Below are positions 7,423 to 44,494 of a DNA stretch of 47,189 nt, piece after piece. The number at the start of each line of letters is the position of its first letter. Position 1 is the first letter of the stretch. A program made the position numbers and the translations under genes. Under the pieces are notes generated by a model, which was not told where the DNA came from, made no database searches, and saw only the letters and a program-made list of their open reading frames with translations. This DNA comes from a virus. The stretch is taken from positions 1 to 47,189 of IMG/VR virus record IMGVR_UViG_3300037071_000750; one strand, given 5' to 3'.

Positions 7423-7436
7423 GGTACTTGCGTACC
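7423..7436. promoter_or_regulatory. Palindrome GTAC-TTGC-GTAC in control region
   Basis: Five-base arms GGTAC / GTACC flank TTGC. This is a member of the genome-wide GTAC-N4-GTAC family and lies in non-coding DNA midway between the two divergent units, so it could act on either as an operator. Confidence 0.5.
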
Positions 7437-7687
7437 GATGTTGCATGTACCGCGCGAACGGGGGAGTGTGGGGAGTTCGATCCCACCCACCCACCGCATT
7501 GTACCCCGCGCAAGTATCCGTTTGGAAATGGCGGGGGAGTGGCAGTACAGTGCAAGTACAGTGCAAGCAACGCACAGTATAGGGCAGCCGCGCACAGTAC
7601 ATGCCATTCGAAGGCGGCACATATACTGCTGTTTTTACATGCACTATACTTTGGCCGCGTGCATGGTGTGCGGGCAGCGGCGCATCC

Positions 7688-7701
7688 TGTATATGAATAC
7701 A
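7688..7701. promoter_or_regulatory. Palindrome TGTAT-ATGA-ATACA in control region
   Basis: Perfect five-base arms flank the spacer ATGA, the commonest spacer of this palindrome family. It lies in non-coding DNA, about 140 bases upstream of the -35 box at 7830. Confidence 0.5.
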
Positions 7702-7757
7702 AGCCCGGTCATACACGCATGCCATTACTGTGCACGCTACTGCAACGTTGCTGCGCT

Positions 7758-7771
7758 TGTACTTACATACA
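7758..7771. promoter_or_regulatory. Near-palindrome TGTAC-TTAC-ATACA
   Basis: This is a variant of the same palindrome family with one arm GTAC and the other ATAC. It sits about 60 bases upstream of the -35 box of the rightward promoter, a position suitable for control. Confidence 0.35.
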
Positions 7772-7829
7772 CTGTGAACACTGTAACACCGCATGCATCA
7801 TGACAGTACTTGACAAGGTGCTACACCCA

Positions 7830-7858
7830 TTGACTTGTGCATGAATGTGTGCTATACT
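7830..7858 (+). promoter_or_regulatory. Sigma-70 promoter of the first early gene
   Basis: TTGACT (7830-7835), a 17-base spacer and TATACT (7853-7858) form a near-consensus host promoter. The spacer ends TGTGC, close to the TGTGG of the promoters at 9403 and 14626. Transcription would start near 7865. A TGAGGT/ACCTCA hairpin at 7885-7903 lies early in the leader. Confidence 0.8.
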
Positions 7859-7991
7859 TGTCTTTCGTTAGTGCATTGGTTGTCTGAGGTTTCCACCACC
7901 TCACCGGCCCGTTCTGTCCGCCATCGTGAATAGGTCAAGTAATCGCGCGCATCCATCGCGTGCGAATAGTGTTGACCATGTAATGGACTAC

Positions 7992-8013
7992 CTGTTGTAC
8001 ATGGGTACAACAG
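7992..8013. promoter_or_regulatory. Extended palindrome in leader of first early gene
   Basis: Nine-base perfect arms CTGTTGTAC / GTACAACAG surround ATGG, the longest member of the palindrome family. It lies in the leader, 33 bases before ATG 8046. As DNA it could bind a dimeric repressor. As RNA it would form a nine-pair hairpin with a four-base loop. Confidence 0.6.
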
Positions 8014-8045
8014 TATCAAACACTGCAACCAAAAAGGTTACTGCA

Positions 8046-9089
8046 ATGAACACCACCATCACAAACAACGCTGCCGCTATCGTCCCGTCACTGGCCGGTG
8101 ACAACACTGGACTGGCAGCATTCACCAAGGCAATGCACAATGTCGCAAGCAATGAAGGTGCGCGCACTGGACTTGAACTTGCTGTCATCGTGGCAGTGCA
8201 TAACATGGGCAGCTTCATCAATGTTGACCGGCTCATGACCGGCACCAAGTCCAGCACTGGCAAGACTGTGAGTGCCAATGCACTGCAAGTCCAGTTTCTG
8301 AAGGACAATGACCCGTCCTACGTTACTTGGCACAACGGCAAATCTACTGTGAAGCCAACAACTGATGACAGTGCGAAACTGTCGGCATGGTCTGAAGCCA
8401 AGCTAGAGAACACTGCCAAGTGCAACGCAATGGAAAAGATGCTGAAGCGCGTGCTACCAGTGTGTCACTACTTGCGCGCACTGGATGCGTCGGAAGTCCG
8501 GACTGAGAACAAAGGCAAGACGCTGGTATACACTGCCAAGAATATTGACCCGTCCACACTGGCACCGGTCGAAACTACTGGCACGCGCCACTCGATACTT
8601 GCGGAAGTTCACCGCGTTGCTGACAAGTTCAATGAAGCCGAAGCACGCGGCTTCAAGGCTCCTGCCGCAACGGTTGTGACCGCGCCCGCCCAGCCTGCCG
8701 CTGGTACCGGCCAGCCTCAAGAAACGCGCACTGCCATCGATACGGCTGGCGCATTGCATGACATCTTTAACAGCAACGCCACCACCAAGGCGACGCTGGA
8801 CAGTCTCAAGACAAGCCCGACGCTGGACTTGGTGATAGTCGATGCACTCAAAGCCAAGTTCACCACCAAGGATGACACTGGCACCTACTTGAACCTTGTT
8901 GCCTTCGGCATTTGGCTCAACACCACCATGAAAGCCGCGCTTGGTGACTTGCAAGTGCGTGGCAAGGTGACCGCGCCCGCGCCCGAAACCAAGGTTATCA
9001 AGGCCGATGCTGTCCAGATGGATGGCAAGCTGCCCGGTGACACCAAGCCCGACACTGCCAAGCCTGCGAAGAAAGGCAAGGCAGCCTAA
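8046..9089 (+). CDS. First early gene, highly expressed unknown protein
   Basis: The product is 347 residues from ATG 8046, with AAAAAGG upstream; the frame is open back to 7926 but nothing there resembles a ribosome binding site. The protein is rich in Ala, Thr and Lys. It has a helical N-terminal half, an Ala/Pro linker near residues 200-225 and a Lys/Ala-rich tail (AKPAKKGKAA) that could bind nucleic acid. No domain is recognised. It forms its own transcription unit between a near-consensus promoter and a strong terminator, as expected for an abundant early protein such as a host take-over or DNA-binding factor. Codon use (frequent ACTGGC, AAG) differs from the following small genes. Confidence 0.75.
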   Translation: MNTTITNNAAAIVPSLAGDNTGLAAFTKAMHNVASNEGARTGLELAVIVAVHNMGSFINVDRLMTGTKSSTGKTVSANALQVQFLKDNDPSYVTWHNGKSTVKPTTDDSAKLSAWSEAKLENTAKCNAMEKMLKRVLPVCHYLRALDASEVRTENKGKTLVYTAKNIDPSTLAPVETTGTRHSILAEVHRVADKFNEAEARGFKAPAATVVTAPAQPAAGTGQPQETRTAIDTAGALHDIFNSNATTKATLDSLKTSPTLDLVIVDALKAKFTTKDDTGTYLNLVAFGIWLNTTMKAALGDLQVRGKVTAPAPETKVIKADAVQMDGKLPGDTKPDTAKPAKKGKAA

Positions 9090-9106
9090 CACTGCCCGAC
9101 ACTCAC

Positions 9107-9139
9107 AAGCCCGCAGCCATTTGGTTGCGGGCTTTTTTT
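9107..9139 (+). terminator. Rho-independent terminator
   Basis: A perfect GCCCGCA / TGCGGGC stem with a ten-base loop is followed by seven T residues, 18 bases after the stop at 9089. It closes the first early transcription unit. Confidence 0.93.
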
Positions 9140-9402: not shown

Positions 9403-9431
9403 TTGACATTTACACGTATATGTGGTATACT
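9403..9431 (+). promoter_or_regulatory. Consensus sigma-70 promoter
   Basis: TTGACA (9403-9408), a 17-base spacer and TATACT (9426-9431) form a strong promoter. The last 15 bases, ATGTGGTATACTGTA, are identical to those of the promoter at 14626. A GAGTTGG/CCAACTC hairpin (9439-9468) begins at about the transcription start. Confidence 0.9.
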
Positions 9432-9494
9432 GTATGTTGAGTTGGATCAGGTTTGTGCGTACCAACTCCCCCACTCCATACCACTGCAAGGAAT

Positions 9495-9508
9495 TGTATT
9501 CATGTACA
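9495..9508. promoter_or_regulatory. Palindrome TGTAT-TCAT-GTACA over a start codon
   Basis: This member of the palindrome family spans the ATG at 9502, so the start codon would lie in the loop and 3' arm of the hairpin if formed in RNA. It starts 70 bases after the -10 box, almost the same distance as for the promoter at 14626. Confidence 0.5.
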
Positions 9509-9762: not shown

Positions 9763-9763
9763 A

Positions 9764-10168
9764 ATGTCACACACACTCAACAGCATTGAACCCTTCCTCG
9801 CGTTCTTGGACATGCATCCCACGCATGAATTCGACACGCGACGGGGCACCGACTGTGCGTATGCGATGTACCTCATCGGCACTGGCATGACCAAACCGTC
9901 AGTGTCGGACGATCGGTTCAGGTGCCTTGACGCAATGGGCAACGGAGTCAGCATGGATCTGCCGAAGGAGTTGGGGCAGGAGCACTGTCGCCCTGATGAC
10001 GGTAGGCAGATCATCTCGTATGCCATGTTGGCCAACCGCATTCGTGACCGCATGCACAGCATCAGCATCAGGCGTGCGGTGTACGAGCCATCGGAGATCA
10101 CCGTCATGATGGCCAAGGTGGTCAGTGTCAAGGCCACCATGAAGGAGTTGTACACGTGTACCGTTTGA
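9764..10168 (+). CDS. Early protein, unknown (134 aa)
   Basis: The product is 134 residues from ATG 9764, right after the preceding stop, with AAGGAG upstream. It is a mixed alpha/beta protein with several Met and His residues and no transmembrane segment. No family is recognised. Its 3' end overlaps the next gene by 13 bases. It belongs to the string of small early genes that often act against host functions in lytic phages; that role is inference. Confidence 0.65.
   Translation: MSHTLNSIEPFLAFLDMHPTHEFDTRRGTDCAYAMYLIGTGMTKPSVSDDRFRCLDAMGNGVSMDLPKELGQEHCRPDDGRQIISYAMLANRIRDRMHSISIRRAVYEPSEITVMMAKVVSVKATMKELYTCTV
10149..10162. promoter_or_regulatory. Palindrome TGTAC-ACGT-GTACC over a start codon
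   Basis: This GTAC-N4-GTAC site spans the GTG start at 10156 of the next gene and also lies in the last codons of the previous one. The ribosome binding site AAGGAG is just outside the 5' arm. A hairpin here would hide the start codon. Confidence 0.45.
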
Positions 10169-10404: not shown

Positions 10405-10437
10405 ACCACAACGCAACAACAACTGGAGACAACTGCA

Positions 10438-10725: not shown

Positions 10726-10762
10726 CGGTGTAACTGGGCACGGGACAAGATGCACGGAGGTG

Positions 10763-10783: not shown

Positions 10784-10816
10784 TGCTTTCGTGTGTCTGC
10801 AAAAAAGGAGACTGCA

Positions 10817-11368: not shown

Positions 11369-11382
11369 TGTACAGGAGTACA
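11369..11382. promoter_or_regulatory. Palindrome TGTAC-AGGA-GTACA carrying a ribosome binding site
   Basis: The four-base loop AGGA plus the next G is the Shine-Dalgarno sequence for ATG 11387, so folding of the five-pair stem would mask it. This is the clearest case for an RNA-level function of the palindrome family. Confidence 0.55.
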
Positions 11383-11872: not shown

Positions 11873-11987
11873 GTTGCGCGTTGCGTTGGATGCACTTGTT
11901 GTTGAGGTCAACGAACTGTTGTCCGCAAACGATGCACCATTTACTGTTGAGATCACATTCACCATCAAACGGAAGGAACTGCACTGA
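11802..11987 (+). CDS. Small protein, unknown (61 aa)
   Basis: The product is 61 residues from GTG 11802, with GGAGG six bases upstream (an inner ATG at 11826 is possible). It overlaps the previous gene by 71 bases in another frame. It is helical and acidic in the middle (LRVALDALVVEVNELLSAND) and then beta-like (FTVEITFTIKRKE). It may form a small coiled-coil dimer. No family is recognised. Confidence 0.5.
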   Translation: MARRTWERMTHEEKAQAIHILRGELRVALDALVVEVNELLSANDAPFTVEITFTIKRKELH

Positions 11988-12418
11988 TGAATTACCTCAC
12001 AATACTGGACACTCAGATCAATGAGTTGGAGACACGATTGGCTGCGTTGCGCACTGCGCGTGCTGTGGTCGCGGAGTTGGCAGAAACGCGCGCAGAGGTG
12101 TACTCAGGTACAACCGAGAAGAAGCCGCGCAAGGATCGTGCGGTTGGGAAGGCGTACACCACGAAGAGTGGCATCATCCGCAATCCCGGTGCTGCACTGC
12201 GTGCGCGTGGGTACATCATTGACTTCTTGCAAGGGCAATCGGAGCCGATCAAGGCATCACTGATCTCGCAGATGCTGAACACGCACAACATCAAGGACAC
12301 CACCATGTGGGGTGTGTTGAAGACACTGCGTGATGAGGGTGTCGTCAAGTGGGACACTGACACGCGACTGTACAGCATCGTGCCCATGATGCAGCATGGC
12401 AAGGCAGCAGCGTCATGA
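11987..12418 (+). CDS. Coiled-coil plus winged-helix-like protein (143 aa)
   Basis: The product is 143 residues, and its start overlaps the previous stop by one base. The first 35 residues are a heptad-like coiled coil (ILDTQINELETRLAALRTAR), a basic linker follows (KKPRKDRAVGKAYTTK) and residues about 75-135 look like a winged helix (IKASLISQMLNTHNIKDTTM, then WGVLKTLRDEGVVKWD). The design is that of a small dimeric DNA-binding regulator, a candidate ligand for the palindromes. Function is inferred from fold-like features only. Confidence 0.6.
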   Translation: MNYLTILDTQINELETRLAALRTARAVVAELAETRAEVYSGTTEKKPRKDRAVGKAYTTKSGIIRNPGAALRARGYIIDFLQGQSEPIKASLISQMLNTHNIKDTTMWGVLKTLRDEGVVKWDTDTRLYSIVPMMQHGKAAAS

Positions 12419-12591
12419 AGGTCGGTGACCCCGGCTGGCAGCAACACTTCATCAACAGGAACAAGGAGATCATGAAACTGTTGGATGAGGGTTGGGGAAT
12501 GGCTGCTGTGGCGCGACGGTTTGGCGTCACAAATACACGTGTACAACAGATCAGGCGCAAAGAAACATGGAGAAGGGAAGCAGCGAAATGA
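12415..12591 (+). CDS. Small helix-turn-helix protein (58 aa)
   Basis: The product is 58 residues with ATGA overlaps at both ends. Residues about 20-50 (EIMKLLDEGWGMAAVARRFG, then VTNTRVQQIRRKE) match the helix-turn-helix found in resolvases and sigma-like regulators. The protein is basic and probably binds DNA. It is one of three consecutive predicted DNA-binding proteins (11987-12866), which suggests a regulatory cassette. Confidence 0.65.
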   Translation: MKVGDPGWQQHFINRNKEIMKLLDEGWGMAAVARRFGVTNTRVQQIRRKETWRREAAK

Positions 12592-12866
12592 GTGCACAAG
12601 TCATCAAGATGCGCAGGCCGCGCACATTCACATCCGCAGAGGCAGTGTTGGACGAGATCCGTGAACGCATCCACATGTGTGGCATGACGTACACGCAGAT
12701 CGCACTCAAGACAGGTGTGTCACCGTCCACTGTTGGCAACATCGCAACCAGTCACACCAAGTGGCCACGCCACACCACACTGTTCCCACTCATGACTGCG
12801 TTGGGCATGCGCATGACCATTGAGTCACCCAATGGCGGCAACCGCACGGAGGGAGAGGCAGGATGA
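12588..12866 (+). CDS. XRE-family helix-turn-helix regulator (92 aa)
   Basis: The product is 92 residues starting in an ATGA overlap. Residues about 34-75 hold a Cro/CI-type helix-turn-helix (MTYTQIALKTGVSPSTVGNI, then ATSHTKWPRHTTLFPLMTAL). This places it in the XRE family, which binds palindromic operators as dimers. It is the best candidate in this genome to bind the recurrent TGTAY-N4-RTACA palindrome, but nothing proves that link. There is no integrase or divergent cro/cI pair, so it is not a lysogeny switch. Confidence 0.75.
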   Translation: MSAQVIKMRRPRTFTSAEAVLDEIRERIHMCGMTYTQIALKTGVSPSTVGNIATSHTKWPRHTTLFPLMTALGMRMTIESPNGGNRTEGEAG

Positions 12867-13126: not shown

Positions 13127-13404
13127 GCATGGGCCAACCACGAGCAGCACGCGGCATTGGTACGTACATGCGTACAATTGCCATGCTGTTGAAGAAAGAC
13201 GAACCATCCACCGCGCGTCACATGTTCGAGATGGTGCACACACCTGATGAGGGGTACGCAGCAGCCACGCTCATACGACTGCGACAACGTGGCATCGCAA
13301 CTGAGGTGGATGGCAGTGGCTACATCCGCGGACCTGAGTGGGCTGCATGCGCTGCATACTATGGTTGGCCACATCAGGACATCCCCCGTGCGACGCAAGA
13401 ATGA
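13123..13404 (+). CDS. Small protein, unknown (93 aa)
   Basis: The product is 93 residues starting in an ATGA overlap. It contains a pattern like a winged helix: EPSTARHMFEMVHTPDEGYA, then TLIRLRQRGIATEVDGSGYI. This suggests a small regulator or modulator. A GTAC-ATGC-GTAC palindrome lies about 40 bases inside the gene. It overlaps the HNH gene by 17 bases. The function is not known. Confidence 0.6.
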   Translation: MSMGQPRAARGIGTYMRTIAMLLKKDEPSTARHMFEMVHTPDEGYAAATLIRLRQRGIATEVDGSGYIRGPEWAACAAYYGWPHQDIPRATQE

Positions 13405-13867
13405 ACCCATTGACGTGTGGTTGCATGTCATCATGCCACCAGACGGTGACATCGAACCATGTTGGCCATGGGATGGTGCACTCAACAAATCAGATGGACG
13501 CCCCTACTTCACAGTGGGTGGCGTTCGTTGGCTCGCGTACCGCCTCGTCTACACGTTGGTGTATGGCCCAATCCCTGATGGGCATGTCGTGCGCCATCGT
13601 GAGTGCAACAACGAGGCATGCTGCAACCCGTACCACCTGTTATCAGGGACGCAGGGTGACAACGAACGCGACAAGGGTGACACTGACAGGTGGGGTTTCC
13701 CCCGCGCGATACTGGACGCTGTACTTGAGTACAATGAGTTGGGTATGCCGCAAGCTGCCATCGCATCAGTGTGCAGTGCGCAGTACGGCATCCTCATCAC
13801 ACAACAACGCGTGTCAGACATTGTGACAGGTGCACGACGCGCATCACAAACAGGAGTGAAGACATGA
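13388..13867 (+). CDS. HNH endonuclease (homing type)
   Basis: The product is 159 residues from GTG 13388, with AGGA eight bases upstream. The core contains CWPWDGALNKSDGRPYF, then HVVRHRECNNEACCNPYHLL, the HNH pattern of phage homing nucleases (His in VVRHREC, Asn in CNNEACCNP, His in YHLL). A C-terminal helix-turn-helix-like part (MPQAAIASVCSAQYGILITQ) would guide DNA binding, as in NUMOD-type homing enzymes. It is a free-standing insertion in the small-gene cluster, not within an intron as far as I can see. Confidence 0.85.
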   Translation: MRRKNEPIDVWLHVIMPPDGDIEPCWPWDGALNKSDGRPYFTVGGVRWLAYRLVYTLVYGPIPDGHVVRHRECNNEACCNPYHLLSGTQGDNERDKGDTDRWGFPRAILDAVLEYNELGMPQAAIASVCSAQYGILITQQRVSDIVTGARRASQTGVKT

Positions 13868-14625: not shown

Positions 14626-14654
14626 TTGACATGTGCCACATTATGTGGTATACT
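14626..14654 (+). promoter_or_regulatory. Consensus sigma-70 promoter
   Basis: TTGACA (14626-14631), a 17-base spacer and TATACT (14649-14654) form a strong promoter. It shares TTGACAT and the 15 bases ATGTGGTATACTGTA with the promoter at 9403. A GGGGAA/TTCCCC hairpin (14667-14690) lies at the start of the leader. Confidence 0.9.
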
Positions 14655-14714
14655 GTACTGTTGAATGGGGAATTGTGTGTGTAGTTCCCCGCAGCGACAA
14701 TCGCAACGGCCAAT

Positions 14715-14730
14715 CTGTACATGAGTACAA
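14715..14730. promoter_or_regulatory. Palindrome TGTAC-ATGA-GTACA in leader
   Basis: This site has the consensus spacer ATGA. It begins 68 bases after the -10 box of the promoter at 14626 and ends 26 bases before ATG 14756. A second copy with the same spacer lies inside that gene at 14858-14869. Confidence 0.55.
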
Positions 14731-14755
14731 CGGCCATAACCGATAGGAGCATGAC

Positions 14756-15220
14756 ATGGATAGGCAATTTGCAGACAAGTTGCAGACGGAACTGCAACTG
14801 TTCGGACGCGAAGGCAAGTACGCGCCTCCGAAGTCGCAAGATCCGATGGACAAGGTTGTACATGAGTACTTCGTGTGCGATCTGATGGCGTCCATCGCAA
14901 ACAAGAGACGCGGCATGGCCAAGGAGATGGTCATTGGTGGTGCGCAGGAGGGTTTGGTAGATGGGCTGATCTCATCTGCCATCAAACAGAACAACCTGCA
15001 ATCCGCGACACTGTTCAGCACTGAACACTACGTGGCGGTGCTGCGTGTTGCGAAGCCGGTCGAAGCCATCGACCACAAGAAACTGCGCACCGAGTTGATC
15101 AAACTTGGTGTTGATGAAGTCACCATTCAGAAGGCGTACGACAACGCGCAGACGACACGTGAGCCTGCGAAGACGTTGGTGGTGACTACAACCCACTCAC
15201 CTGCGGGCAGTGGTAGGTGA
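14756..15220 (+). CDS. Unknown protein at head of middle operon (154 aa)
   Basis: The product is 154 residues from ATG 14756, with TAGGAG eight bases upstream. The first 100 residues are mixed alpha/beta with a conserved-looking acidic/aromatic stretch (DKVVHEYFVCDLMASIANKR). The C-terminus is Thr/Ser/Pro-rich. No family is recognised. As the first gene after a strong promoter it is likely abundant. It carries a GTAC-ATGA-GTAC palindrome inside. Confidence 0.6.
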   Translation: MDRQFADKLQTELQLFGREGKYAPPKSQDPMDKVVHEYFVCDLMASIANKRRGMAKEMVIGGAQEGLVDGLISSAIKQNNLQSATLFSTEHYVAVLRVAKPVEAIDHKKLRTELIKLGVDEVTIQKAYDNAQTTREPAKTLVVTTTHSPAGSGR

Positions 15221-15248
15221 GTACAACTGCAACCAACGGAGAACAGAC

Positions 15249-15871: not shown

Positions 15872-15885
15872 TGTATTCATGTACA
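15872..15885. promoter_or_regulatory. Palindrome TGTAT-TCAT-GTACA in leader
   Basis: This is a reverse-oriented member of the family (spacer ATGA on the other strand) with an outer T-A pair. It lies 17 bases before ATG 15902 in a 46-base intergenic gap. No other regulatory signal is visible there. Confidence 0.5.
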
Positions 15886-16616: not shown

Positions 16617-17733
16617 GTTCCCACCGGACTTCGAACTGAGCATCGAACCGTGGGATGAGCGCAAACATCCTGACAATCTGCCATCGTTTGACAACGTGAA
16701 GCTGACAGCGATCGCAACGTGTCCAACGTTTGGCATCATGCGATACCAACATCACAAGGTGTATGCATCGCCAAGGAGGTCGATGCCGCTTGTCGCGGGA
16801 CTGGCTGCACATGAAGCATTCAGCGCTGTGCGGTTGGGTGACCTGTTCTTCAATGGGCACATGTTCTACCCAGACATGGATTGCAAACGCACTGCCATCA
16901 GACGTGCGAACCAACTGTTTGGCAGTGAGCGCACAATTGCGTGGGTGGAGAAGATGTCTGCCGGTGAGGACATCGAACGCAGCGTCATGTTGGGTGCACT
17001 TGAGATCTTCAACAGCACAGGGTTCTACGATGATCCAGACGACAAACGCAGAACCATCGCCAACATTGAGGAGACGATCATTGCGTACTGCTCACGGTAT
17101 CCGATGGGCAAGACGATGTGCGTGGTGGACATCGACAAGTTGGGTCGGCAGTTCGTTGGTGTCGAAATCCCAATCAAGATGTTCCTGCGCATCAGGAACC
17201 ACGACGTTGTACGTGAGTACAAGTTCCTTGGACGTGTGGATGGTGTGATGTGGACAGGTCCAGACAAGACTGCCATCAATGTCGAAGACGACAAGACTGC
17301 ATCACGGCTCAACGATGCATGGCACGAGAGTTGGAAGATCGCACATCAGATGACTGGTTACTGTGCTGCCATCAACGCACTGTTAGGCGTGGAGACAATG
17401 CAGGGCATCGTACGTGGTGCCAGCATTCCACTGCCAAAGACGTACGACTACGGTGGCGTCGTTAATGTGCCATTCAGACGCAATCTGCCGCAATTCAAGG
17501 AGTGGGCCGACTACGTGGTGCACATCATGGACATCATGCAGAAGTACGTGAACACACCGCTGTCTGCACCACGGTACACACACAGTTGCAACCGGTACTT
17601 CAGACCGTGTTCGTACATCCCATTCTGCGACAGTGACATGGAGGAGCGTGCACTGATGTACAGTGAGATGGATGACGAGGTGTGGGACCCCACCACTGGT
17701 GCACACTACGATGAGGAGGAGCATGATGTCTGA
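16543..17733 (+). CDS. PD-(D/E)XK nuclease with Cas4/AddB-like iron-sulfur motif
   Basis: This is probably an exonuclease of the phage recombination pathway that makes single-stranded ends for the partner ATPase and ssDNA-binding protein. The 396 residues contain a Glu helix (AAHEAFSAVRLGD, about 93-105), the active-site stretch GRVDGVMW followed by NVEDDKTAS (Asp, then Asp-x-Lys, about 230-255), an early Cys (ATCPTF, about 60) and a late cluster C-x6-C-x5-C (SCNRYFRPC, SYIPFC). These four Cys could bind a 4Fe-4S cluster as in Cas4 and AddB. The start is uncertain: 16543 gives an odd hydrophobic N-terminus; 16585 is an alternative. It overlaps the ATPase gene by 8 bases. Confidence 0.8.
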   Translation: MVFIAALTTILAALMPSFLRQTPNEFPPDFELSIEPWDERKHPDNLPSFDNVKLTAIATCPTFGIMRYQHHKVYASPRRSMPLVAGLAAHEAFSAVRLGDLFFNGHMFYPDMDCKRTAIRRANQLFGSERTIAWVEKMSAGEDIERSVMLGALEIFNSTGFYDDPDDKRRTIANIEETIIAYCSRYPMGKTMCVVDIDKLGRQFVGVEIPIKMFLRIRNHDVVREYKFLGRVDGVMWTGPDKTAINVEDDKTASRLNDAWHESWKIAHQMTGYCAAINALLGVETMQGIVRGASIPLPKTYDYGGVVNVPFRRNLPQFKEWADYVVHIMDIMQKYVNTPLSAPRYTHSCNRYFRPCSYIPFCDSDMEERALMYSEMDDEVWDPTTGAHYDEEEHDV

Positions 17734-18625
17734 CATCGTAATGAAGCACGAGAACATCAGCGATGGCACAGCACTGCCGATGATCGGTGGTGCACATGCA
17801 CGCAGACCGGAGGACATCGACAAACGCATGACTGCGCTGCTGTGGGGTGATGCTGGCGTTGGCAAGACTGTGCTGGCTGCAACTGCACCGGGACGCAAGT
17901 GTTGGTTTCAGTTCGATCCCGAAGGCACCAACACACTGGCTGGCACTGGTGAGGATGTACAGGTGTACGACCTGAGTGCAATGGCAGAGTCCACATTGGA
18001 GAGTTTCAAGAATGTCGGCAACCCGCTCAACATCAAGACGATCTTGGACCAGTTCGACACGTTCGTGTTTGACAGCATCACGAACATCACGGACAAGACA
18101 CTCATGCGCGGGATCAGCACAAACAAGGGAGCCACAGTGGAACGACCTTCGCCAGCAGCTTACGCAACTCGAAACGCTCTGGCTATCCGTCTCATTAAGA
18201 ATGTCATGGCAGCTACACAGAAGGCGAAGAAACATGTCATATTTATTGCGCATGAGAAAGCGCCGACAACAGATGAAGAGACTGGGCAAGTACTGTTCAT
18301 TACTCTTGCACTTGGAGGCCAACTCGCGGCTAACGTAGGCATCGACTTCAGTGAGATCTGGCATCTGTATCAAGTGGACAACCGCAATGAGCGGCGCATC
18401 TGCATACGACCAGCACGCAAACGCAGACCTGCCAAGACACGCATGTGGATACAGAGTGGCAGCCCAGAGTTCGAATGGAAATTCAATGCGGAGAAGTGGG
18501 ACGATGTTGGCAACAAACCATTCCGCATGGACACGTGGTTCAATATGTGGAACACAGTCGGCCACAAGTTGACATTGCCGGGGACACCGGAGTTCGATCG
18601 ACTGTACAAGGAGGTGTACAAGTGA
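17726..18625 (+). CDS. Sak4-like RecA-fold ATPase (recombination)
   Basis: The product is 299 residues of the phage nucleotide-binding Sak4 type, single-domain RecA-like proteins that act in single-strand annealing and recombination. Walker A is GDAGVGKT (41-48) and Walker B is TFVFDSITNI (about 112-121). ATG 17726 is chosen for its distance to GAGGAGG; ATG 17723 is possible. It lies between the nuclease and, farther on, the ssDNA-binding protein, the common order in such modules. The part at about 18140-18345 uses clearly different codons (GCT, ATT, TTT, ATA) from the rest, which suggests a recombinant patch. Confidence 0.85.
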   Translation: MSDIVMKHENISDGTALPMIGGAHARRPEDIDKRMTALLWGDAGVGKTVLAATAPGRKCWFQFDPEGTNTLAGTGEDVQVYDLSAMAESTLESFKNVGNPLNIKTILDQFDTFVFDSITNITDKTLMRGISTNKGATVERPSPAAYATRNALAIRLIKNVMAATQKAKKHVIFIAHEKAPTTDEETGQVLFITLALGGQLAANVGIDFSEIWHLYQVDNRNERRICIRPARKRRPAKTRMWIQSGSPEFEWKFNAEKWDDVGNKPFRMDTWFNMWNTVGHKLTLPGTPEFDRLYKEVYK

Positions 18626-20413: not shown

Positions 20414-20427
20414 TGTATATGAGTACA
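20414..20427. promoter_or_regulatory. Palindrome TGTAT-ATGA-GTACA before ssDNA-binding gene
   Basis: This site has the consensus spacer. It ends 33 bases upstream of ATG 20461 and directly follows three hairpins, giving a fourth. A possible weak promoter (TTGCAG, then TATATG) overlaps it. Confidence 0.5.
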
Positions 20428-21634: not shown

Positions 21635-23046
21635 TGATCCATCTGAGCACGCAACAACAGATGTGCGTTGACTTCTGCTGCGATCGCACACGCACCCTCG
21701 CTGCAATCACCGGACAGGCAGGCACCGGCAAAACCACCCTCATCAAATACATGACCGAGCAGCTTGCATTCAAGTACAGGCAGCGTGTGGCAGTCTGTGC
21801 ACCCACAGGCAAGGCCGCACGCCGCATCATGGAAGCGACAGGAGTACATGCGTTCACAGTGCACAAGCTGCTGGAGTACGGCAGACCACGCGACCGCGAT
21901 CCTGACACTGGCGAGGGTGATCCAACGCTCCCGCGCAGGGACAAGTTCAACCCACTCGATTACGACGTGGTGATCTGCGACGAGTACTCCATGATCAACC
22001 ACGAACTGAACCGCAACCTCATCGATGCGTTGCCCAAGGGTGCGCGGCTCATCATGGTTGGTGACGTGTCGCAATTATCACCCATCGAACGGTATCCGCT
22101 GATGACACCGGACAGTCCGTTCATCCAACACCTTGCTGTCGATGGCAGGGCGTTCACACTTGAACATGTGTACAGACAGGAGGTGGGCAGCGATGTGTTG
22201 GTTGCTGCCACCGCCATCAGACAAGGACGCATCCCACGCAAGGGTGACAACTTCCGCATCGCAATGACGGAGCAGCCGGTCAAGAAGCTGCGCGCATTGA
22301 TCGAGGAACTGCCGCATGACTTCAGCAAGTTGGAGAACCAGATCATCACACCGGTCAAGAACAAATGGATCGGCACACGTGCGTTGAATGTGATGCTGCG
22401 CAACATCTACAATCCACAGGGCCGACATGCAGTGGCACTGATGCGGTACTCATGGGACGACAAGACGAAGGTCATCGTCAGCATTGGCGACAAGGTGGTG
22501 TGCACTGAGAACTCGTACGATCTGCGCAATTACAGTGACCGGTATGAGAAGTGGGATGACGAGGGGCGTGCGATCCTGACATCGTTCATCCCTGTACCTG
22601 ACACGAAGTGGATGCTGAATGGTGAGACTGGCGTCATCATCGATATCCATCCAGACACCACCATCGAAGTTGACTTCGGTGACCGCGTGGTTGAGATCCC
22701 GTATGAGTATGAGGAGTGGTCGGAACGGCACAACAAATACTTCAACCAGTACCCGCAGCGTGCGATCGATCTTGCGTACGCACTGACCACACACAAGGCA
22801 CAGGGCAGTGAGTTCGACAACGTGATCTACGTCATCAGCAAGACAGTCTCGTTCATGCTGTCACGTGAGAACATCTACACTGCGGTGACGCGTGCACGGA
22901 AGTCTGCGTTGGTCATCACTGATGCACAGTCACTGATGGTCAGCATCAGGGTGACACGTGACATCGCACACAAGCGTGACAAGGCACGTGCTGCACGTGC
23001 GAAGAGCATCATCGATCCAAAGGCAAAGATCGTGAGGAAACAATGA
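21631..23046 (+). CDS. SF1 helicase, RecD/Dda-like
   Basis: The product is 471 residues with the SF1B motifs in order: Walker A GQAGTGKT (28-35), Walker B ICDEYSM (about 115), motif V THKAQGSEFD (about 387-396) and motif VI YTAVTRARKS (about 415). It is close to RecD2 and Dda, 5'-3' helicases that remodel forks. No DnaB-type helicase is present in this genome, so this may be the replicative helicase. ATG 21631 overlaps the previous stop; ATG 21634 is also possible. Confidence 0.9.
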   Translation: MMIHLSTQQQMCVDFCCDRTRTLAAITGQAGTGKTTLIKYMTEQLAFKYRQRVAVCAPTGKAARRIMEATGVHAFTVHKLLEYGRPRDRDPDTGEGDPTLPRRDKFNPLDYDVVICDEYSMINHELNRNLIDALPKGARLIMVGDVSQLSPIERYPLMTPDSPFIQHLAVDGRAFTLEHVYRQEVGSDVLVAATAIRQGRIPRKGDNFRIAMTEQPVKKLRALIEELPHDFSKLENQIITPVKNKWIGTRALNVMLRNIYNPQGRHAVALMRYSWDDKTKVIVSIGDKVVCTENSYDLRNYSDRYEKWDDEGRAILTSFIPVPDTKWMLNGETGVIIDIHPDTTIEVDFGDRVVEIPYEYEEWSERHNKYFNQYPQRAIDLAYALTTHKAQGSEFDNVIYVISKTVSFMLSRENIYTAVTRARKSALVITDAQSLMVSIRVTRDIAHKRDKARAARAKSIIDPKAKIVRKQ

Positions 23047-23321: not shown

Positions 23322-23443
23322 TGTTCGATGCAATACTCAACGGACTGGTGGTGTGTGGCTGCGTGGTGCTGCTGCTGCTGCCACCACGGTACGACCCTGC
23401 GATCATGTTGAAGGACTGGCTGATGAGGAGGATACGCAAATGA
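23321..23443 (+). CDS. Small membrane protein between helicase and polymerase (40 aa)
   Basis: The product is 40 residues. Its ATG overlaps the previous stop by one base and its TGA overlaps the polymerase ATG (ATGA). Residues 4-22 are hydrophobic (AILNGLVVCGCVVLLLLP) and the C-terminus is basic. It could anchor replication to the membrane, but this is only a guess. Confidence 0.5.
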   Translation: MFDAILNGLVVCGCVVLLLLPPRYDPAIMLKDWLMRRIRK

Positions 23444-34633: not shown

Positions 34634-35140
34634 TCACATGCCTTCGTATTTGCCACCGGGACCGTAGTCATCGGAGGTGATCGGCTCGCGTGCCGGTGGA
34701 GTGAGACTGCGGCGCACGGTGTTGAATGACGCAAGTGGCGATGAGTACATCAGCATGTCCATGATGGTCTTGGTGATGCCACTTGGAGTGTTCATCGCAG
34801 CGCGCGCATCCTCTGCATCCATGTCAATCGACTGACTTTTAATTGCTGCCATCTCCTCATCCGACATCGATGCGTTCATCGCACCCTTGTACTTGGGTAC
34901 AACTTCTGGCGGCTGTGCGGGTGGTGTGGGTGCTGGCCCGTACTTCTTCGTGTAGTCGTACTTGCGCGTCTCTGGGTAGTCGTACTCCTGCATGTCCGGT
35001 TCCATCAGCACCTGTGGACGGTTCTTCGGCAGTGGCTCCATGATCTGTTCTTGCATCTTCAGCCGCCTGTACATCGTGTCGTCTTTGGCACGCGCTTGCT
35101 GCTGTCTGATGACATCATCGAAGTTCCCACGGGGTGGCAT
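34634..35140 (-). CDS. Virion-region protein, unknown (168 aa)
   Basis: The product is 168 residues with a GGAGC site upstream. It is charged and Tyr/Met-rich in the first half (MQEYDYPETRKYDYTKKYGP) and has an acidic helix near residue 95. The C-terminus is basic with Gly and Tyr. No family is recognised. It lies in the lysis and internal-virion cluster. Confidence 0.55.
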   Translation of the reverse strand: MPPRGNFDDVIRQQQARAKDDTMYRRLKMQEQIMEPLPKNRPQVLMEPDMQEYDYPETRKYDYTKKYGPAPTPPAQPPEVVPKYKGAMNASMSDEEMAAIKSQSIDMDAEDARAAMNTPSGITKTIMDMLMYSSPLASFNTVRRSLTPPAREPITSDDYGPGGKYEGM

Positions 35141-35334: not shown

Positions 35335-35476
35335 TTCCAGCCTCCACTGTTTTGTACACAGGTACAGTTTTCCGAATGCGTCCGCACACCTTGCACTGTT
35401 CGGTCCACACAGCATCACGCCACACTGTGTACAGACGGCAGATCGGCAACGGGCACGGATCGGGTTGCGTCTTCAT
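35156..35476 (-). CDS. Overlapping reading frame with zinc-binding N-terminus
   Basis: The frame encodes 106 residues starting at ATG 35476 in an exact ATGA overlap with the membrane protein. The first 35 residues hold four Cys (CPLPIC and CKVC) of zinc-ribbon type. The rest is Arg/Glu/Lys-rich and shares its DNA with the gene at 35143-35334. The N-terminal 45 codons are likely real. The long tail could be true, or reflect a missed stop or frameshift before 35334. Confidence is therefore limited. Confidence 0.4.
   Translation of the reverse strand: MKTQPDPCPLPICRLYTVWRDAVWTEQCKVCGRIRKTVPVYKTVEAGNAIQIRSAAATDGGRSHKPRNREEDWRAAECGPEVSRTREGRRAARTHRQKDKDTETEQ
35353..35366. promoter_or_regulatory. 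Palindrome TGTAC-ACAG-GTACA upstream of a small late gene
   Basis: This GTAC-N4-GTAC site is read as TGTAC-CTGT-GTACA on the coding strand, 19 bases before ATG 35334 and just before its GGAGG. Here too the palindrome precedes a ribosome binding site. It also lies in the overlapping zinc frame. Confidence 0.45.
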
Positions 35477-37140: not shown

Positions 37141-38442
37141 TCAATATTTGATGCACGCCAGCAGCGCGTTGTTGCGTGGTCGTGTGTCAGTGCCAGTACC
37201 GTAGGTAGCGTTGGTGCCAGCCGGTGTGCCAGCGGTGATGGCGACGTTGGTGATGACATGTGTATGCGCCGCACTACGACCACCAGTCGTACCAGAGACA
37301 GCAACTGTGTGCGTGTGTGCTGCACCAGTGCTGCTGGTGTTCTGAACAACAGAAGCTGAGAAGGCAGCGAAGGTGGCACCACCTGCGGCCGCAGCCGTCG
37401 TGCTCGGTCCTTCTTCAGTGTGGACGTGGTTGGCACTGCCTGTGCCTGTCGCAGATGATGCGTCAGCGAACGTGTGCGTGTGATCTGTGGTCTCAGCCGC
37501 GGACGATGCAGTGTGGTTGTGTGTCGCCAACGCTGAACCGGTGAATACGTGCGTGTGGCTCTCGATGTTGGCAGCTTGTGCCGCGCCAATGACACGACTG
37601 ACATCAACACCACGACCATCATCCCAGTTGCGGTCGAACACACCACGTGCGTCAGGGAGACGGAACGTGCTGGAACCATCACCGGGTGAGAACGCACCTT
37701 CGTTGCCTGTCCATGCCGCATCAGATGCGGTGAGGTTGCCACTGGCCTGTGCGAATGCCCACAGTGCTGCATACGTGGCACGTGAGATCAGTGCACCATT
37801 GCGTTTGAGGTAGCCAGTCGGTGCAGCAGTGGCAGGGAAACTGATGCATGCACCAACTGGCACTGCACTGGCCACCGCGACGTTGACAGCAGCAGTGACG
37901 AATGCAGTTGTGGCGATCGATGTGTCGTTGTCACCAGCAGTGGGTGTCGGTGCCTTCGGATCGCCAGTGAATGTCGGACTGGCAAGGTCTGCCTTGAGTG
38001 CGAGTGCGGAGGTTTGTGCACCATCGGACGTGGCGATTGCACCAGTCACGAATGCGGTGGTCGCAAGTGACGTGTCGTTGTCACCCGCCGTTGGCGTTGG
38101 TCCAGTCGGATTGCCAGTGAACACAGGTGATGCCAGCGGTGCCTTGGCTGCAAGGTCACTGACGAGGTTGGTGACACCACTCTGTGCAATGGGCAGCGTC
38201 GGTGGATACGTGGACGGCTTCCCTGGCAGTGATGTGTACGTGACCGATGTCCAACCAGACGATTGGCGACCGTATATCGCACCATCAAGTGGTGCCTCTG
38301 GGATGCCGCCAACAACAGGCGCGGGAGGTGGTGCCTCTTTCATCCGCCACTGGCCACTGTTGTATATGTATACAGGTCCACCAGCGACAGGCCCGAATGT
38401 CTGACCTTCAGTTGGGCTGTTTGGGAAGTTGAACGCTGCCAT
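37141..38442 (-). CDS. Receptor-binding tail fibre with collar domain
   Basis: The product is 433 residues from ATG 38442. It starts with a short attachment part, then two copies of a fibre repeat (LASPVFTGNPTGPTPTAGDN and LASPTFTGDPKAPTPTAGDN, each ending in ATTAFVT), then a phage tail collar domain (PVGACISFPATAAPTGYLKR, then FRLPDARGVFDRNWDDGRG). The C-terminal third has repeated His-x-His motifs (SHTHVF, TDHTHTF, AAHTHTV, AAHTHVI) of the kind that bind metal ions in needle-like fibre tips. This is the likely host-recognition protein. Confidence 0.85.
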   Translation of the reverse strand: MAAFNFPNSPTEGQTFGPVAGGPVYIYNSGQWRMKEAPPPAPVVGGIPEAPLDGAIYGRQSSGWTSVTYTSLPGKPSTYPPTLPIAQSGVTNLVSDLAAKAPLASPVFTGNPTGPTPTAGDNDTSLATTAFVTGAIATSDGAQTSALALKADLASPTFTGDPKAPTPTAGDNDTSIATTAFVTAAVNVAVASAVPVGACISFPATAAPTGYLKRNGALISRATYAALWAFAQASGNLTASDAAWTGNEGAFSPGDGSSTFRLPDARGVFDRNWDDGRGVDVSRVIGAAQAANIESHTHVFTGSALATHNHTASSAAETTDHTHTFADASSATGTGSANHVHTEEGPSTTAAAAGGATFAAFSASVVQNTSSTGAAHTHTVAVSGTTGGRSAAHTHVITNVAITAGTPAGTNATYGTGTDTRPRNNALLACIKY

Positions 38443-41161: not shown

Positions 41162-43803
41162 GTCAGTGCACCCGACTTCTTGTGGTAGTACATGGTTGCA
41201 GCGGAGACGGTCAACGGTTTGACAGACGATCCTGCGAACCGCAGTCGGAACAGTTTGCCCTCAACAGGCATGCCGCGCAACCACTCCTGACGTGTGTTGC
41301 GCCCACCACCGTAGGGTTGGGCACCTGCACCGAAACCTGGCGCATCCTGCCCAATGAAGATGGTGGTGCGACGCGGGATCAGTTCAAACGTCTCGAAGTC
41401 TTCGCGGATGCTGTTGGTGTAGATGCTGAATTCGAACTCGCTGCTGCCCTTGCTGTCAAACCGCACGACTTCGATCTGTTTGTTGGACATGCGATCCTTG
41501 AAGTCGGTCCACGATGTCTCCAACTCCCAATCAATGGGGATGCCGGTGAATTCGTCGTACCATGTGGGGTGTGCATCACGCGCGGCTTTGAATGTGCCAG
41601 ACGCTGGTGAGGTGTGGTTCACCAACACGATGTACACCTGCCTGTATGATGCGTCGAGGATGCGGTCACCAGCAACGTACGCAGTGTTGATTGCCCACAC
41701 GCGTTTGGTGTAGTCACCCAACATGTCAGCAGGGAACTTGTCCAACGCGTTGCCGTATTTGTACACGCGACCAGTGCCACTGCCGAAGTACAGACGCGAC
41801 AGTTGTGACACCGCACCCCATGCGAAGTTCATGCCGCGGAACCGTGTCCAGCGTCGGATCTTCAGCCGCGCGTTGTACTCAAATACATACGCTGGCGTCT
41901 CGTCGTTGACTGGTTTGACAGCGCCGTTGATCCCACCAAATGCGTAGTTGAGACCAGTTGGGTACAGAGGCACCTCGATCACAACAGTGTCTTCGTCCAC
42001 CACTGCACGGATGCGACGCACACCGTTGATGTTGGCTGCGAGGATCAGTCCGTCCAATGAGTTGGTGACACCGCTGATGGTCACGTAGTCACCGGCATCG
42101 AATGTGTGCGATGGCAGCAGCATGTATGCCAAGCCATGCGGCTGCAACGTGTTGGATGCGACGATTGGATCATCCGGCAGATCGTACGTCACATCACTGT
42201 ATTTGGGTGCGAACATCATGTAGGAGCGGAAGTTGCTGTCCCACACTGCGAATGTCTTGTACCTGCGATCGGTCTCAACCAGACGCGCAAAGTGCCGCAG
42301 CATCACAGGATGGATGAGATCGCTGATGGTTGTGGGTGTGTACTCACCACTCGCGCGGCTGATCTCCAGACTGTTGATCCCGTTGATGGCAGCGCAGAAG
42401 ATGTCGTTGCCAAGGGAGATGATGCTGTGATGTGAGAACGATCCCAGCATCGCCACGTTGTCTTTGAACTCAGGTTGGTGGAACGCACCACTGTAGATGC
42501 CAAGATCACCGAGGATGGAGCGATCGTGCAGCGCGATGAACACCTTATTGCGGATGACGTTGGCACCAAGAATGGTGGTTTCGACAGCAGAGGTGACCAT
42601 GCCGAGATCGATATCGACTGCATCATCTGGGAACGGATCACCCGTGAACACGTAGTACGTGTCCTGCGCAGAGATGCAGATCGTTGTTGGGCCGTTGGGG
42701 GTCCGATCTGTGGAGATCAACAACACATAACGGTCTGTTGCGATGATGAAGTCCGCGCGTGGGATGGCAGTGTTGTCCACCATGTCATTGACAAGGTAGT
42801 TGCAGGTGGTGACACCGGTCGTGGCATTGGTGAAGATGTCCAACGGCTTGTCATTGGTGGCACCATTGACCGCAAGCAGGTGGCCCTTCACGATCTCAGC
42901 AGAGATGCGGCGGCAGTTGGACCACGGTGGCATGGGAATGGCCAATGCCTGTGCGATGGCGTGGTTCCACACCTTCGTAACCGTACCAGCGACATCAACC
43001 TTCACGACCTCACCAGTGTCACTGAACACGAAGATGCTGTCTTTGTAGTAGCGTCCGTAGATGTCACCGCCACCGAGTGCGTGGGTGTCCCTCGTCCATC
43101 CGATGGTGATCGATGCAGATGCGGTGGTCGGCACAGCGCGCACGTAGATGGTGAAGTTGTTGCCATCAATGACATCGACAGCATGCACACCAAGGAAGTC
43201 GGCTGCCGCAATGCCACCGATGGGTGCAGACCATGACGTGATGTTGATGTGGTCACCATCCGACATGCCGTGTGTGGCTTTGGTGATCTTGACCACACCA
43301 GTGGCGATGGTGGATGCCTTGACCTTCAGGTCGGTCTGTGCAGCAGCAGCACCAGATGTGTCAACGCCAGCCAGTGTGAACGTGTTGGCGGGTGCACCAA
43401 CCGAACTGATGATGTGCGGACCCATTGCAGGGGTCATGCCAACAGCAGGCACACCAGTGATGTTGACCACCATGTTGTTGACGAATTTGGCGATGTCAGC
43501 GGGTGCGACAGTGCAGACCGCAGGACCACCAACACCAGACTTCGACAGACTGGTGATGACGACGTTGATGGCACTGCCTGTGGTGACGACAGTGCATGCA
43601 GCGGGTGCGACAACAGTCTCCGCACCCTGTTTCAGATCAGCGAACAGTCTGCTGCCGGGACGGATGCTGAAGCTGCCATCAGTCTGACGCACAATGTTGT
43701 CGCTGATGGGCTGATACTTGGACGACAACGACTTGTCACTGTCAGACACATCCCACCCGCCACCGAAGTCACGGACTGTAGACTGCGCGAGTTTGTACGT
43801 CAC
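41158..43803 (-). CDS. Tail nozzle/tubular protein B-like
   Basis: The product is 881 residues, about T7 gp12 size (794). The N-terminal pattern RDFGGGWDVSDSDKSL, followed by NIVRQTDGSFSIRPGSRLFA, is the start found in podovirus tail-tube (nozzle) proteins. The rest is beta-rich. It follows the adaptor gene and precedes the fibre genes, the usual order. It would form the distal tail tube to which the fibres bind. Confidence 0.78.
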   Translation of the reverse strand: MTYKLAQSTVRDFGGGWDVSDSDKSLSSKYQPISDNIVRQTDGSFSIRPGSRLFADLKQGAETVVAPAACTVVTTGSAINVVITSLSKSGVGGPAVCTVAPADIAKFVNNMVVNITGVPAVGMTPAMGPHIISSVGAPANTFTLAGVDTSGAAAAQTDLKVKASTIATGVVKITKATHGMSDGDHINITSWSAPIGGIAAADFLGVHAVDVIDGNNFTIYVRAVPTTASASITIGWTRDTHALGGGDIYGRYYKDSIFVFSDTGEVVKVDVAGTVTKVWNHAIAQALAIPMPPWSNCRRISAEIVKGHLLAVNGATNDKPLDIFTNATTGVTTCNYLVNDMVDNTAIPRADFIIATDRYVLLISTDRTPNGPTTICISAQDTYYVFTGDPFPDDAVDIDLGMVTSAVETTILGANVIRNKVFIALHDRSILGDLGIYSGAFHQPEFKDNVAMLGSFSHHSIISLGNDIFCAAINGINSLEISRASGEYTPTTISDLIHPVMLRHFARLVETDRRYKTFAVWDSNFRSYMMFAPKYSDVTYDLPDDPIVASNTLQPHGLAYMLLPSHTFDAGDYVTISGVTNSLDGLILAANINGVRRIRAVVDEDTVVIEVPLYPTGLNYAFGGINGAVKPVNDETPAYVFEYNARLKIRRWTRFRGMNFAWGAVSQLSRLYFGSGTGRVYKYGNALDKFPADMLGDYTKRVWAINTAYVAGDRILDASYRQVYIVLVNHTSPASGTFKAARDAHPTWYDEFTGIPIDWELETSWTDFKDRMSNKQIEVVRFDSKGSSEFEFSIYTNSIREDFETFELIPRRTTIFIGQDAPGFGAGAQPYGGGRNTRQEWLRGMPVEGKLFRLRFAGSSVKPLTVSAATMYYHKKSGALT

Positions 43804-44468
43804 GGGCTGCTGTCCTTCACGTACCAGTCGGTCATGGGATTGCCCGCGCGATTGGGCTTGGTGCTGTACACTGCCTTCACCTCATCCATGCGGTACAGTG
43901 AAATCAGCGCGTCGAACTGTTTTTGGAGCACACCAGTCAGTTCAACATTGAGACCCGACTTCACAGACAGTTGAAATGCAGTGCCGATGATGAGGAGGTC
44001 TTTGTAGAATGGCACAGGGTCATCAAGTTCGAAGTCGGTGTCGCGGATGACACGCGACCACAGGAAGTAGTTGTTCGTCGCACCGACAGGGTAGATGGCG
44101 AACACCTTCGGTTGACCGATCGGCACGATGGTGGGGATGCGGATGATGCTGGGGTTGATCAGTGCAGGTGCCCACGGGAGTTCCGGCTCCTGATCCTTCT
44201 TGTACACGCGCGCGACATCGCTGAACGTGCCAATGACAGCGGTCAGATCCTCAACAGGTGCACCAGTTGTGGCGTTGGTCGTGAATGGTGACAACGTGAT
44301 GAAGTCACGCCACACGTACCTGCGCATGAGGCTGCGGTACAGCATCGATGCATCTTGGATGATGCCACTCTGGAGGTGGATTTGCACATCCCGACCTGGA
44401 GCGTACCGCATCGCCAACAACACGCCGTTGACGACATCTTCCATCGTGAATGGCGTCGGTGCGGGCAT
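43800..44468 (-). CDS. Tail adaptor/tubular protein A-like
   Basis: The product is 222 residues, close to T7 gp11 (196). It begins with a helical part (TMEDVVNGVLLAMRYAPGRD) and continues mixed alpha/beta with a C-terminal helical bundle. The position between capsid genes and nozzle fits the adaptor that links portal and tail. The leader carries a GTAC-N4-GTAC palindrome and GGAGG. It may be the first gene of a tail sub-unit of expression. Confidence 0.7.
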   Translation of the reverse strand: MPAPTPFTMEDVVNGVLLAMRYAPGRDVQIHLQSGIIQDASMLYRSLMRRYVWRDFITLSPFTTNATTGAPVEDLTAVIGTFSDVARVYKKDQEPELPWAPALINPSIIRIPTIVPIGQPKVFAIYPVGATNNYFLWSRVIRDTDFELDDPVPFYKDLLIIGTAFQLSVKSGLNVELTGVLQKQFDALISLYRMDEVKAVYSTKPNRAGNPMTDWYVKDSSP

Positions 44469-44480
44469 GGCAGCCTCCGT

Positions 44481-44494
44481 TGTACATGAGTACA
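44481..44494. promoter_or_regulatory. Palindrome TGTAC-ATGA-GTACA before the tail adaptor gene
   Basis: This site, read on the coding strand as TGTAC-TCAT-GTACA, lies 13 bases before ATG 44468, immediately ahead of GGAGG, and right after a strong hairpin. It is the clearest late-gene copy of the family. Confidence 0.55.

Follow-up and report, generated by a model that had tools for sequence, protein, structure and literature searches.

Dispersed palindromes in an uncultured tailed phage and lineage-specific counterparts in its relatives, most likely a stoperator-like operator network

The virus record IMGVR_UViG_3300037071_000750, whose 47,189 bases were analysed whole and are called the window here, derives from an uncultured tailed phage in which copies of one short palindrome, TGTAY-N4-RTACA, recur between 3299 and 44494, raising the question of what reads these sites and to what end. 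In this study, we describe the sites, their excess over expectation, their behaviour as DNA sites, their placement and the lineage-specific families of relatives, all of which are observed. We consider it probable that the palindromes are dispersed operators, recognised as double-stranded DNA by a dimeric regulator that the phage itself encodes, most likely a small XRE-family helix-turn-helix protein.

The original prediction had counted by eye 17 exact GTAC-N4-GTAC sites, and every one of their start positions is correct. In the codon-preserving shuffles which it proposed as a check, such sites averaged 1.38 with a maximum of 5 (n=500), and Markov models of order 2, 3 and 5 led to an expectation of about 2, the largest of 100 being 7, 5 and 7, respectively. 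The preference for a spacer of four was borne out, as GTAC arms at other spacers from 0 to 30 give only 0-8 copies, and the seven variants with GTAT/ATAC arms are all present together with one further copy, at 41874, that had been overlooked. On the other hand, the span of 7423-44494 given for the family was too narrow, with the sites at 3299 and 5175 falling outside it, and the near-constant plus-strand orientation comes down to a weak tendency (centre TG in 14 and CA in 7 of 27 sites, with symmetric arms), too weak to be a usable signal. The unit TGTAY-N4-RTACA has 20 exact copies against 0.08 expected, and the sharper core TGTA-N6-TACA is found 20 times against 0.55 in codon-preserving shuffles (maximum 4, n=500). 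With exact five-base arms there are 12 copies at a spacing of 4, none at 0-3 or 5-7, and 2 at 8. A symmetric weight matrix, trained on the same genome and set to about one match per Markov-2 genome so that about one false positive is expected, finds 27 sites in the window.

Such a palindrome could be read in DNA or in RNA. Over the 27 sites, the left arm has T 24, G 26, T 26 and A 27 times with an inner C in 20, and the right arm an inner G in 22 followed by T 27, A 27, C 27 and A 24 times. A pyrimidine-purine step forms the centre of 25 of the 27 window sites, a feature that is not universal among relatives (4 of 14 sites of genome G028 and 11 of 18 of G006). Outside the core, no complementarity of the flanks was found over 26 window sites (p=0.20), and departures from pairing on the sense strand of nine genomes amount to 39 G-T, 40 A-C and 94 others, while a hairpin would favour G-T. 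Symmetric arms, unpaired flanks and G-T equal to A-C are what a DNA site for a dimer is expected to look like and an RNA hairpin is not, thus the palindromes behave as DNA sites and not as RNA hairpins. The suggestion of an RNA hairpin with a four-base loop, acting on the transcript, is therefore very improbable, even though some sites grow into longer hairpins (e.g. CTGTTGTACATGGGTACAACAG at 7996), the leader 14662-14755 with its site paired folds better than 199 of 200 shuffles, and flank pairing is nominally higher in G018 and G022 of the nine genomes (p=0.03-0.04, uncorrected). The extra flank pairing of these two genomes and the good fold at 14662 suggest that a few sites may double as hairpins.

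The resemblance to a host LexA operator did not hold up either. The cyanobacterial box RGTACNNNDGTWCB, the consensus as given in the original prediction, is present once in the window (0.21 expected), at the GGTAC-N4-GTACC copy at 7423..7436, which is among the 17, has its outer bases changed and is not a matrix site. LexA was rejected on the outer bases, 24 of 27 sites having T on the left and just as many having A on the right, and on the quite different palindromes carried by relatives. More generally, a host protein as the binder (a repressor, a LexA-like protein, or a nucleoid or partition factor), with words varying with the host, is improbable. Several motifs do have the centre CACGTG, on which bacterial parS is also centred, but twenty-odd sites for a host repressor, many of them in genes, would by our reasoning be selected against unless the phage benefits.

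The late block of the window lies on the minus strand and the early block on the plus strand, at about 7.1-25.9 kb. The early region makes up 40% of the genome and contains 19 of the 27 sites (p=0.0014). Eight of the 27 are intergenic by midpoint (background 7%), and 12 of the 20 exact copies fall entirely within coding sequence. The claim that about half of the sites lie in leaders or over start codons was roughly right, with 12 of 27 midpoints between -80 and +20 relative to a called start, for which the background is 13% (p=7e-5). Nine genomes together have 163 sites, of which 52 fall between genes against 8% expected (p=2e-18), the majority still being within genes; in G028 (2 of 14) and G029 (2 of 11) the intergenic share does not reach significance by itself. 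In six genomes, 11 sites lie in the divergent region that separates early from late genes, where 2.5 would be expected. This concentration of sites between genes, around starts and in the early part of the genome points to gene control and speaks against sites that serve replication, packaging or partition instead of transcription. The latter reading is a shade less probable even than a host binder; it draws on sites that are genome-wide, in genes of both strands and within coding sequence, and KorB and similar plasmid proteins act in both capacities, but no ParB family was found among the part of the window proteins that was scanned with Pfam.

Where do the sites stand relative to promoters? 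Three early promoter-like sequences, all on the plus strand, have TTGACW-N17-TATACT with TG before the -10 in common and are 69-78% identical over 32 bases: TTGACT-N17-TATACT at 7830..7858, and TTGACA-N17-TATACT at 9403..9431 and 14626..14654. Promoter-like matches overall are at chance (6 against 6.1 expected). The second and third of these promoters are followed by the site at 9495..9508, over the start codon of gene 9502, and by TGTAC-ATGA-GTACA at 14716..14729, an intergenic site 33 bp before gene 14756 with the top matrix score, their midpoints lying at about +63 and +61 from the inferred transcription starts. The first is followed at about +137 by the site at 7996..8009, at the start of the first early gene (7983..9089, plus strand, 368 aa, no PHROG match), and has two sites upstream in the divergent control region, TGTAT-ATGA-ATACA at 7688..7701 and TGTAC-TTAC-ATACA at 7758..7771. 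Midpoints at +61, +63 and +137 imply that the sites follow these promoters and do not cover them. Of the 27 window sites, 3 lie near sigma-70-like promoters (2% background); the association is weaker in other genomes, with 5 of 27 sites near one in G022 (6%). A leader hairpin is predicted after each early promoter (7866-7920, 9439-9470 and 14662-14695), the sequences differing; only the leader 14662-14755 folds clearly better than shuffles (z -2.4), the other two leaders giving -1.8 and -0.1.

Relatives were gathered by large terminase (145 found, 80 kept), by capsid (366 found, 80 kept) and by helicase (2 found). The palindrome scan was run over 47 records, namely the window, 45 relatives taken whole (G019 minus its last 158 bases) and the unrelated G048, with all 256 four-base arms at spacers 0-12, or about 3,300 words per record, matches less than 300 bp apart being collapsed. 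A word passed p<1e-6 in 13 of the 47 records, window included, and in 12 once G024 (TGTC-N3-GACA, 4e-7) was set aside for the general hairpin excess of its group; in the mirror-repeat control 1 of 47 passed, the window itself (4e-7, three copies). As found over expected in this collapsed scan, the window has TGTA-N6-TACA (19/0.6), G049 TAAC-N4-GTTA (14/0.06, two of the 14 being one site in its two ends), G022 CCAA-N6-TTGG (19/0.9), G028 AACA-N2-TGTT (13/1.3), G006 and G007 GACA-N2-TGTC (15/1.5 and 10/1.1), G014 CAAC-N4-GTTG (10/0.5), G051 ACAC-N0-GTGT (9/0.7), G018 TATA-N2-TATA (14/1.4), G011 and G015 ATAC-N0-GTAT (11/1.4 and 11/1.3), and G029, the weakest of the twelve, TTAC-N4-GTAA (8/0.7). 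Arms used by relatives include TAAC-N4-GTTA, CCAA-N6-TTGG, TTATACGTATAA and TGACA-N2-TGTCA. Each lineage has words of its own: there are eight kinds of arm among related records, TAAC being common to G049 and G051, and the build is mostly one, 11-14 bp with A/T flanking the centre on both sides. Two lengths occur within one phage, TGAC-N4-GTCA 15 times and its N3 form 13 times in G006, and TAAC-N4-GTTA 14 times and its N3 form 9 times in G049, as if a dimer tolerated one base less or two regulators shared the arms, with even and odd centres. Literature searches of limited depth turned up no report of families of this kind for the clade.

Four records below the threshold alone were assigned through a relative's word: G017 (5e-5), G010 (7e-5), G046 (5e-5) and G001 (2e-4). 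G025 has a suggestive CGTA-N6-TACG (4 against 0.24), and longer relatives with no family at p<1e-6 include G054, G027, G030, G021, G016, G013, G053, G050, G052 and G055. L057, L061 (G021) and L069 (G024) were not taken as family carriers, their palindrome excess being a general one that does not reside in any single word; throughout these genomes, perfect 5-bp inverted repeats are up to four times as frequent as expected at loops of about 3-9, L061 having 75 against 18 at loop 4, so that hairpin potential is pervasive. G031 and G034 were grouped with these general-excess records by the spread of words only.

Are the sites retained between relatives? For the genomes near the window the answer is mixed. 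The site at 5175..5188, within the small terminase gene, is kept, with arms identical at 10, 9 and 9 of 10 positions in L139, L006 and L007, as is that at 41874..41887, within an 881-aa gene (10/10 in L139, 8/10 in L140). TGTAC-GCAG-GTACA at 3299..3312, within the large terminase gene, is lost, with 3/10 in L139 and 5/10 in L006, L007 and L009. The sole alignable intergenic site, at 44481..44494 before the minus-strand gene 43800, persists in L139 as CGTACTTGAGTACA with one mismatch (scored 7/10 through an alignment gap) and is lost in L009 (5/10). In the four TTATACGTATAA phages (73-82% identical), alignable sites are kept in 12/14, 14/19, 11/17, 7/9, 5/11 and 6/14 cases, and 64-86% of these alignable sites have arms matching at 9-10/10 positions, compared with 25-50% of the background, which suggests that the arms are under selection in these phages. 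Kept and lost sites together indicate persistence with turnover.

Which protein would bind the sites? Three helix-turn-helix-like genes stand in a row at 11987-12866: 11987, winged-helix-like by eye, 12415, and the best candidate, the 92-aa XRE protein at 12588..12866 (plus strand), with a degenerate site, AATACACGTGTACA, at 12532..12545, about 49 bp before it. Among the phage's own proteins named in the original prediction, this XRE protein gained ground, by co-occurrence only. With iterated unfiltered profiles, its family was found in G000, G022, G015, G017, G018 and G011 and not in G029, G054, G027, G030, G024 or G021; the G049 protein was accepted for its N-terminus, common to the family, and the HNH gene nearby. 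Among clade records longer than 40 kb (n=13), XRE is thus present in seven of the eight that carry sites and in none of the five that lack them (Fisher, 7/7 vs 1/6: 0.005, kinship ignored); if G049 is dropped, the former count is six of eight. Within the TTATACGTATAA group, the XRE protein of G018 shares 65-76% identity with its three counterparts. The predicted fold of the 92-aa protein is HipB-like and 434 Cro-like, the top match being a HipB-operator complex (E=0.0034), and 4-bp arms with N6, one helical turn apart, fit a HipB/434-type dimer; the arms of 434 operators likewise lie one turn apart. When all 62 called window proteins were swept at lower sensitivity, no other family distributed like XRE emerged. 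From these sequence comparisons and the fold, we put the binding of the sites by the XRE protein slightly below an even chance, lowered from an even one on account of the weak match in G049 and the sites that G021 may have without XRE.

Several points weigh against XRE-bound operators. The G049 match is weak (E=0.012), was missed by another profile round, and was then added by hand as a seed. The seven XRE genomes amount to about four independent lineages, and two labels are arguable, G017 (own p 5e-5) counting as with sites through its relatives' word and G024 (4e-7) as without. G021, also counted as without, has a nominal excess of the window word (9 against 1.6, 4e-5), partly clustered. In G029, which exceeds 40 kb and whose terminase is the closest to that of the window (63% identity), no XRE protein could be detected, and the family of sites is weaker (TTACACGTGTAA, 8 copies, 6e-7). 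Conversely, the unrelated G048 has a 63%-identical XRE protein but no scattered family; its recognition helix differs, and no TGTAC site at up to one mismatch was found there, only local TTAG-N4-CTAA clusters. In the 62-protein sweep XRE itself, seeded with one sequence, scored 2 of 8; XRE was otherwise searched harder than other proteins, so that other fast-evolving proteins could have the same distribution unseen. The AlphaFold confidence is moderate (pLDDT 71.5), with no Foldseek match passing 0.001, and the TGAC and TAAC families, which also occur one base shorter between the arms, are not what a rigid dimer would favour. As to promoters, a fourth strong promoter-like match (20912, of another spacing) has no site within 490 bp, and no sites lie near such promoters in G018 (0 of 21), G028 and G029. 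Finally, a lysogenic repressor is doubtful, as the families found for 59 of the 62 called proteins include no integrase and a search of species genomes gave no relative.

It is also conceivable, although on balance unlikely, that the binder is a phage regulator other than XRE, be it the fast-diverging first early protein (7983-9089), the protein of 11987, winged-helix-like by eye, the small helix-turn-helix protein of 12415, or the ribbon-helix-helix protein of 21329. The sites of G029 without XRE and the row of three helix-turn-helix-like genes lend some weight to this, and so does the first early gene, which adjoins the control region (1-3 sites there in six genomes) and, like the sites, differs between lineages. 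It has a counterpart of 290-402 aa at the same place in relatives, G022, G029, G017, G018 and G021 among them, recognisably similar only within small groups, but no family was recognised for it. Neither 11987 nor 12415 has a homologue in the other genomes searched by profile, and the ribbon-helix-helix protein was rejected, with its family missing in 4 of 8 genomes with sites and present in 5 of 5 without. Also discarded as a regulator was the conserved protein of 6346-6780, first considered for the one-mismatch sites just upstream of its homologue in G021, as it has no Pfam match, a conserved glycine-rich tail and a place in the late block. L272 and L273 surfaced as XRE relatives; the translation of L272 does not resemble an XRE protein. 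By eye, the first early protein of G022 has a DnaJ-like HPDK stretch.

Returning to dispersed operators bound by XRE, we propose that the small XRE-type protein (12588-12866) would, as a dimer, mark its own genome at some 27 places, and that the bound regulator might slow or stop RNA polymerase, as a roadblock more than as a promoter cover, so that early genes would be turned down as the regulator accumulates; regulator and sites would have co-diverged across the clade, yielding the lineage words. A roadblock is favoured over a classical operator because the sites come after promoters and inside genes on both strands. That the effect is repression or roadblock, as the layout of sites suggests, is possible, at somewhat less than an even chance, and a role in early-gene shut-off or in exclusion of relatives is less probable again, with lysogenic immunity less likely than either. 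The broadest picture, unlikely though conceivable, is a clade of uncultured, probably virulent podovirus-like phages with lineage address codes, each of one XRE dimer and 20-30 symmetric roadblocks distributed over genes and leaders alike, in which recognition helix and sites would switch together, and incoming relatives of the same code would be silenced but those of another code would not.

The remaining sites of the early block run along the plus-strand genes, beginning with one over the start of gene 10156 (10149..10162, one mismatch), an intergenic one directly before gene 11387 (11369..11382) and one within gene 11987 (12099..12112). Around the HNH gene, there is an intergenic site before it (13163..13176, one mismatch) and one within it (13720..13733); around gene 14756, one within it (14857..14870, one mismatch) and a weak one over its end (15212..15225). 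An intergenic site before gene 15902 (15872..15885) is followed by sites within the exonuclease-like gene (17208..17221) and the Sak4-like gene (17956..17969, one mismatch), just inside the DUF669 gene (20414..20427), and within the helicase gene (22161..22174, weak) and the UDG-PolA gene (24239..24252). Beyond the early block, sites lie within the 1462-aa gene (27952..27965) and gene 34634 (34888..34901), between genes before the minus-strand gene 35143 (35353..35366), and, as TGTAT-ATGT-ATACA, within the collar-domain gene (38361..38374).

As to the phage itself, its 62 proteins were called with a custom script, its portal and terminase are P22-type, its closest named phages are remote, and it also encodes a uracil-glycosylase/PolA fusion, a RecD-like helicase and a Sak4-like protein. 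The fusion, at 23440-25938, joins a uracil-DNA glycosylase domain to a PolA-type DNA polymerase. The families behind the missing integrase or recombinase came from Pfam, PHROGs or both, MrpR itself not being used as a query, and the search of species genomes, with the major capsid as query, was pattern-limited. The two ends of the window repeat each other (1-410 and 46780-47189, 402 of 410 identical, 8 mismatches), a terminal repeat whose two copies differ slightly, perhaps through assembly of variants. In G048 (L136-L138), the TTAG-N4-CTAA inverted repeats are clustered near both record ends, at 829-875 and 50348-50379. In phage MW202489, an open reading frame of 180 bases (39992-40171, L262) is annotated as the class D beta-lactamase OXA-58, for which it is far too short, most likely a misannotation.

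How do these sites compare with known systems? Cluster A mycobacteriophages have 20-30 stoperators, mostly oriented with transcription and only some of them at promoters, whose motifs diverge together with the repressors (PMC6550527), and the stoperator, asymmetric with a 13-bp core, is bound by a monomer with two DNA-binding domains (PMC9283540). The window resembles these phages (L5, Bxb1, TipsytheTRex) in its 27 dispersed sites, most away from promoters, and in a site sequence that diverges among related phages, with eight kinds of arm. It differs in a palindromic site of no clear orientation (TG 14, CA 7 of 27) and in a P22-type portal with no integrase among the families found for 59 of 62 proteins, and it would differ in the binder if this is the present candidate, a 92-residue single-domain XRE protein with HipB and 434 Cro as fold matches. 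SPBRE, of the Bacillus prophage SPbeta, was found in silico and later shown to be the site of the master repressor MrpR, a protein of tyrosine-recombinase fold, with nine or ten sites of a 15-bp motif in promoter regions (PMC10516654). The family described here was likewise first spotted by sequence; unlike SPBRE, it has about 27 sites, many intragenic, and a candidate of another protein family.

If the broadest picture is right, the stoperator principle would have evolved independently outside temperate actinophages, with changes of specificity readable from sequence. Dispersed operators have been described in detail for few phage groups, and here one clade shows eight kinds of arm of similar geometry, which raises the question of how a regulator shifts its specificity when about 25 sites must change too. 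With the natural pairs of protein and site in the window, G022, G049 and the TTATACGTATAA group, this question could be put to a direct test, and regulators of other uncultured phages might be located from sequence by the same scan.

Dispersed operators have precedents outside those two groups as well. The Streptomyces phage phiC31 has conserved inverted repeats that act as dispersed operators at early promoters, and the C1 operators of phage P1 are scattered over its genome. The likeness to the present sites is in operators dispersed over a phage genome, those of phiC31 and P1 being mostly intergenic and read by other repressor families. With the XRE repressors of the 434, P22 and HipB type, the window shares the predicted fold, symmetric 4-bp arms one turn apart and an XRE gene in the same genome; it departs from them in spreading 27 sites over the genome, where phages of the 434 and P22 type flank a single regulator gene with about three operators per side. 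Taken together, the sites most likely make up a stoperator-like network of dispersed operators in a new clade of phages, one that would resemble the stoperator and SPBRE systems in its working and stand apart from them in its symmetric site and in a candidate protein of another family.

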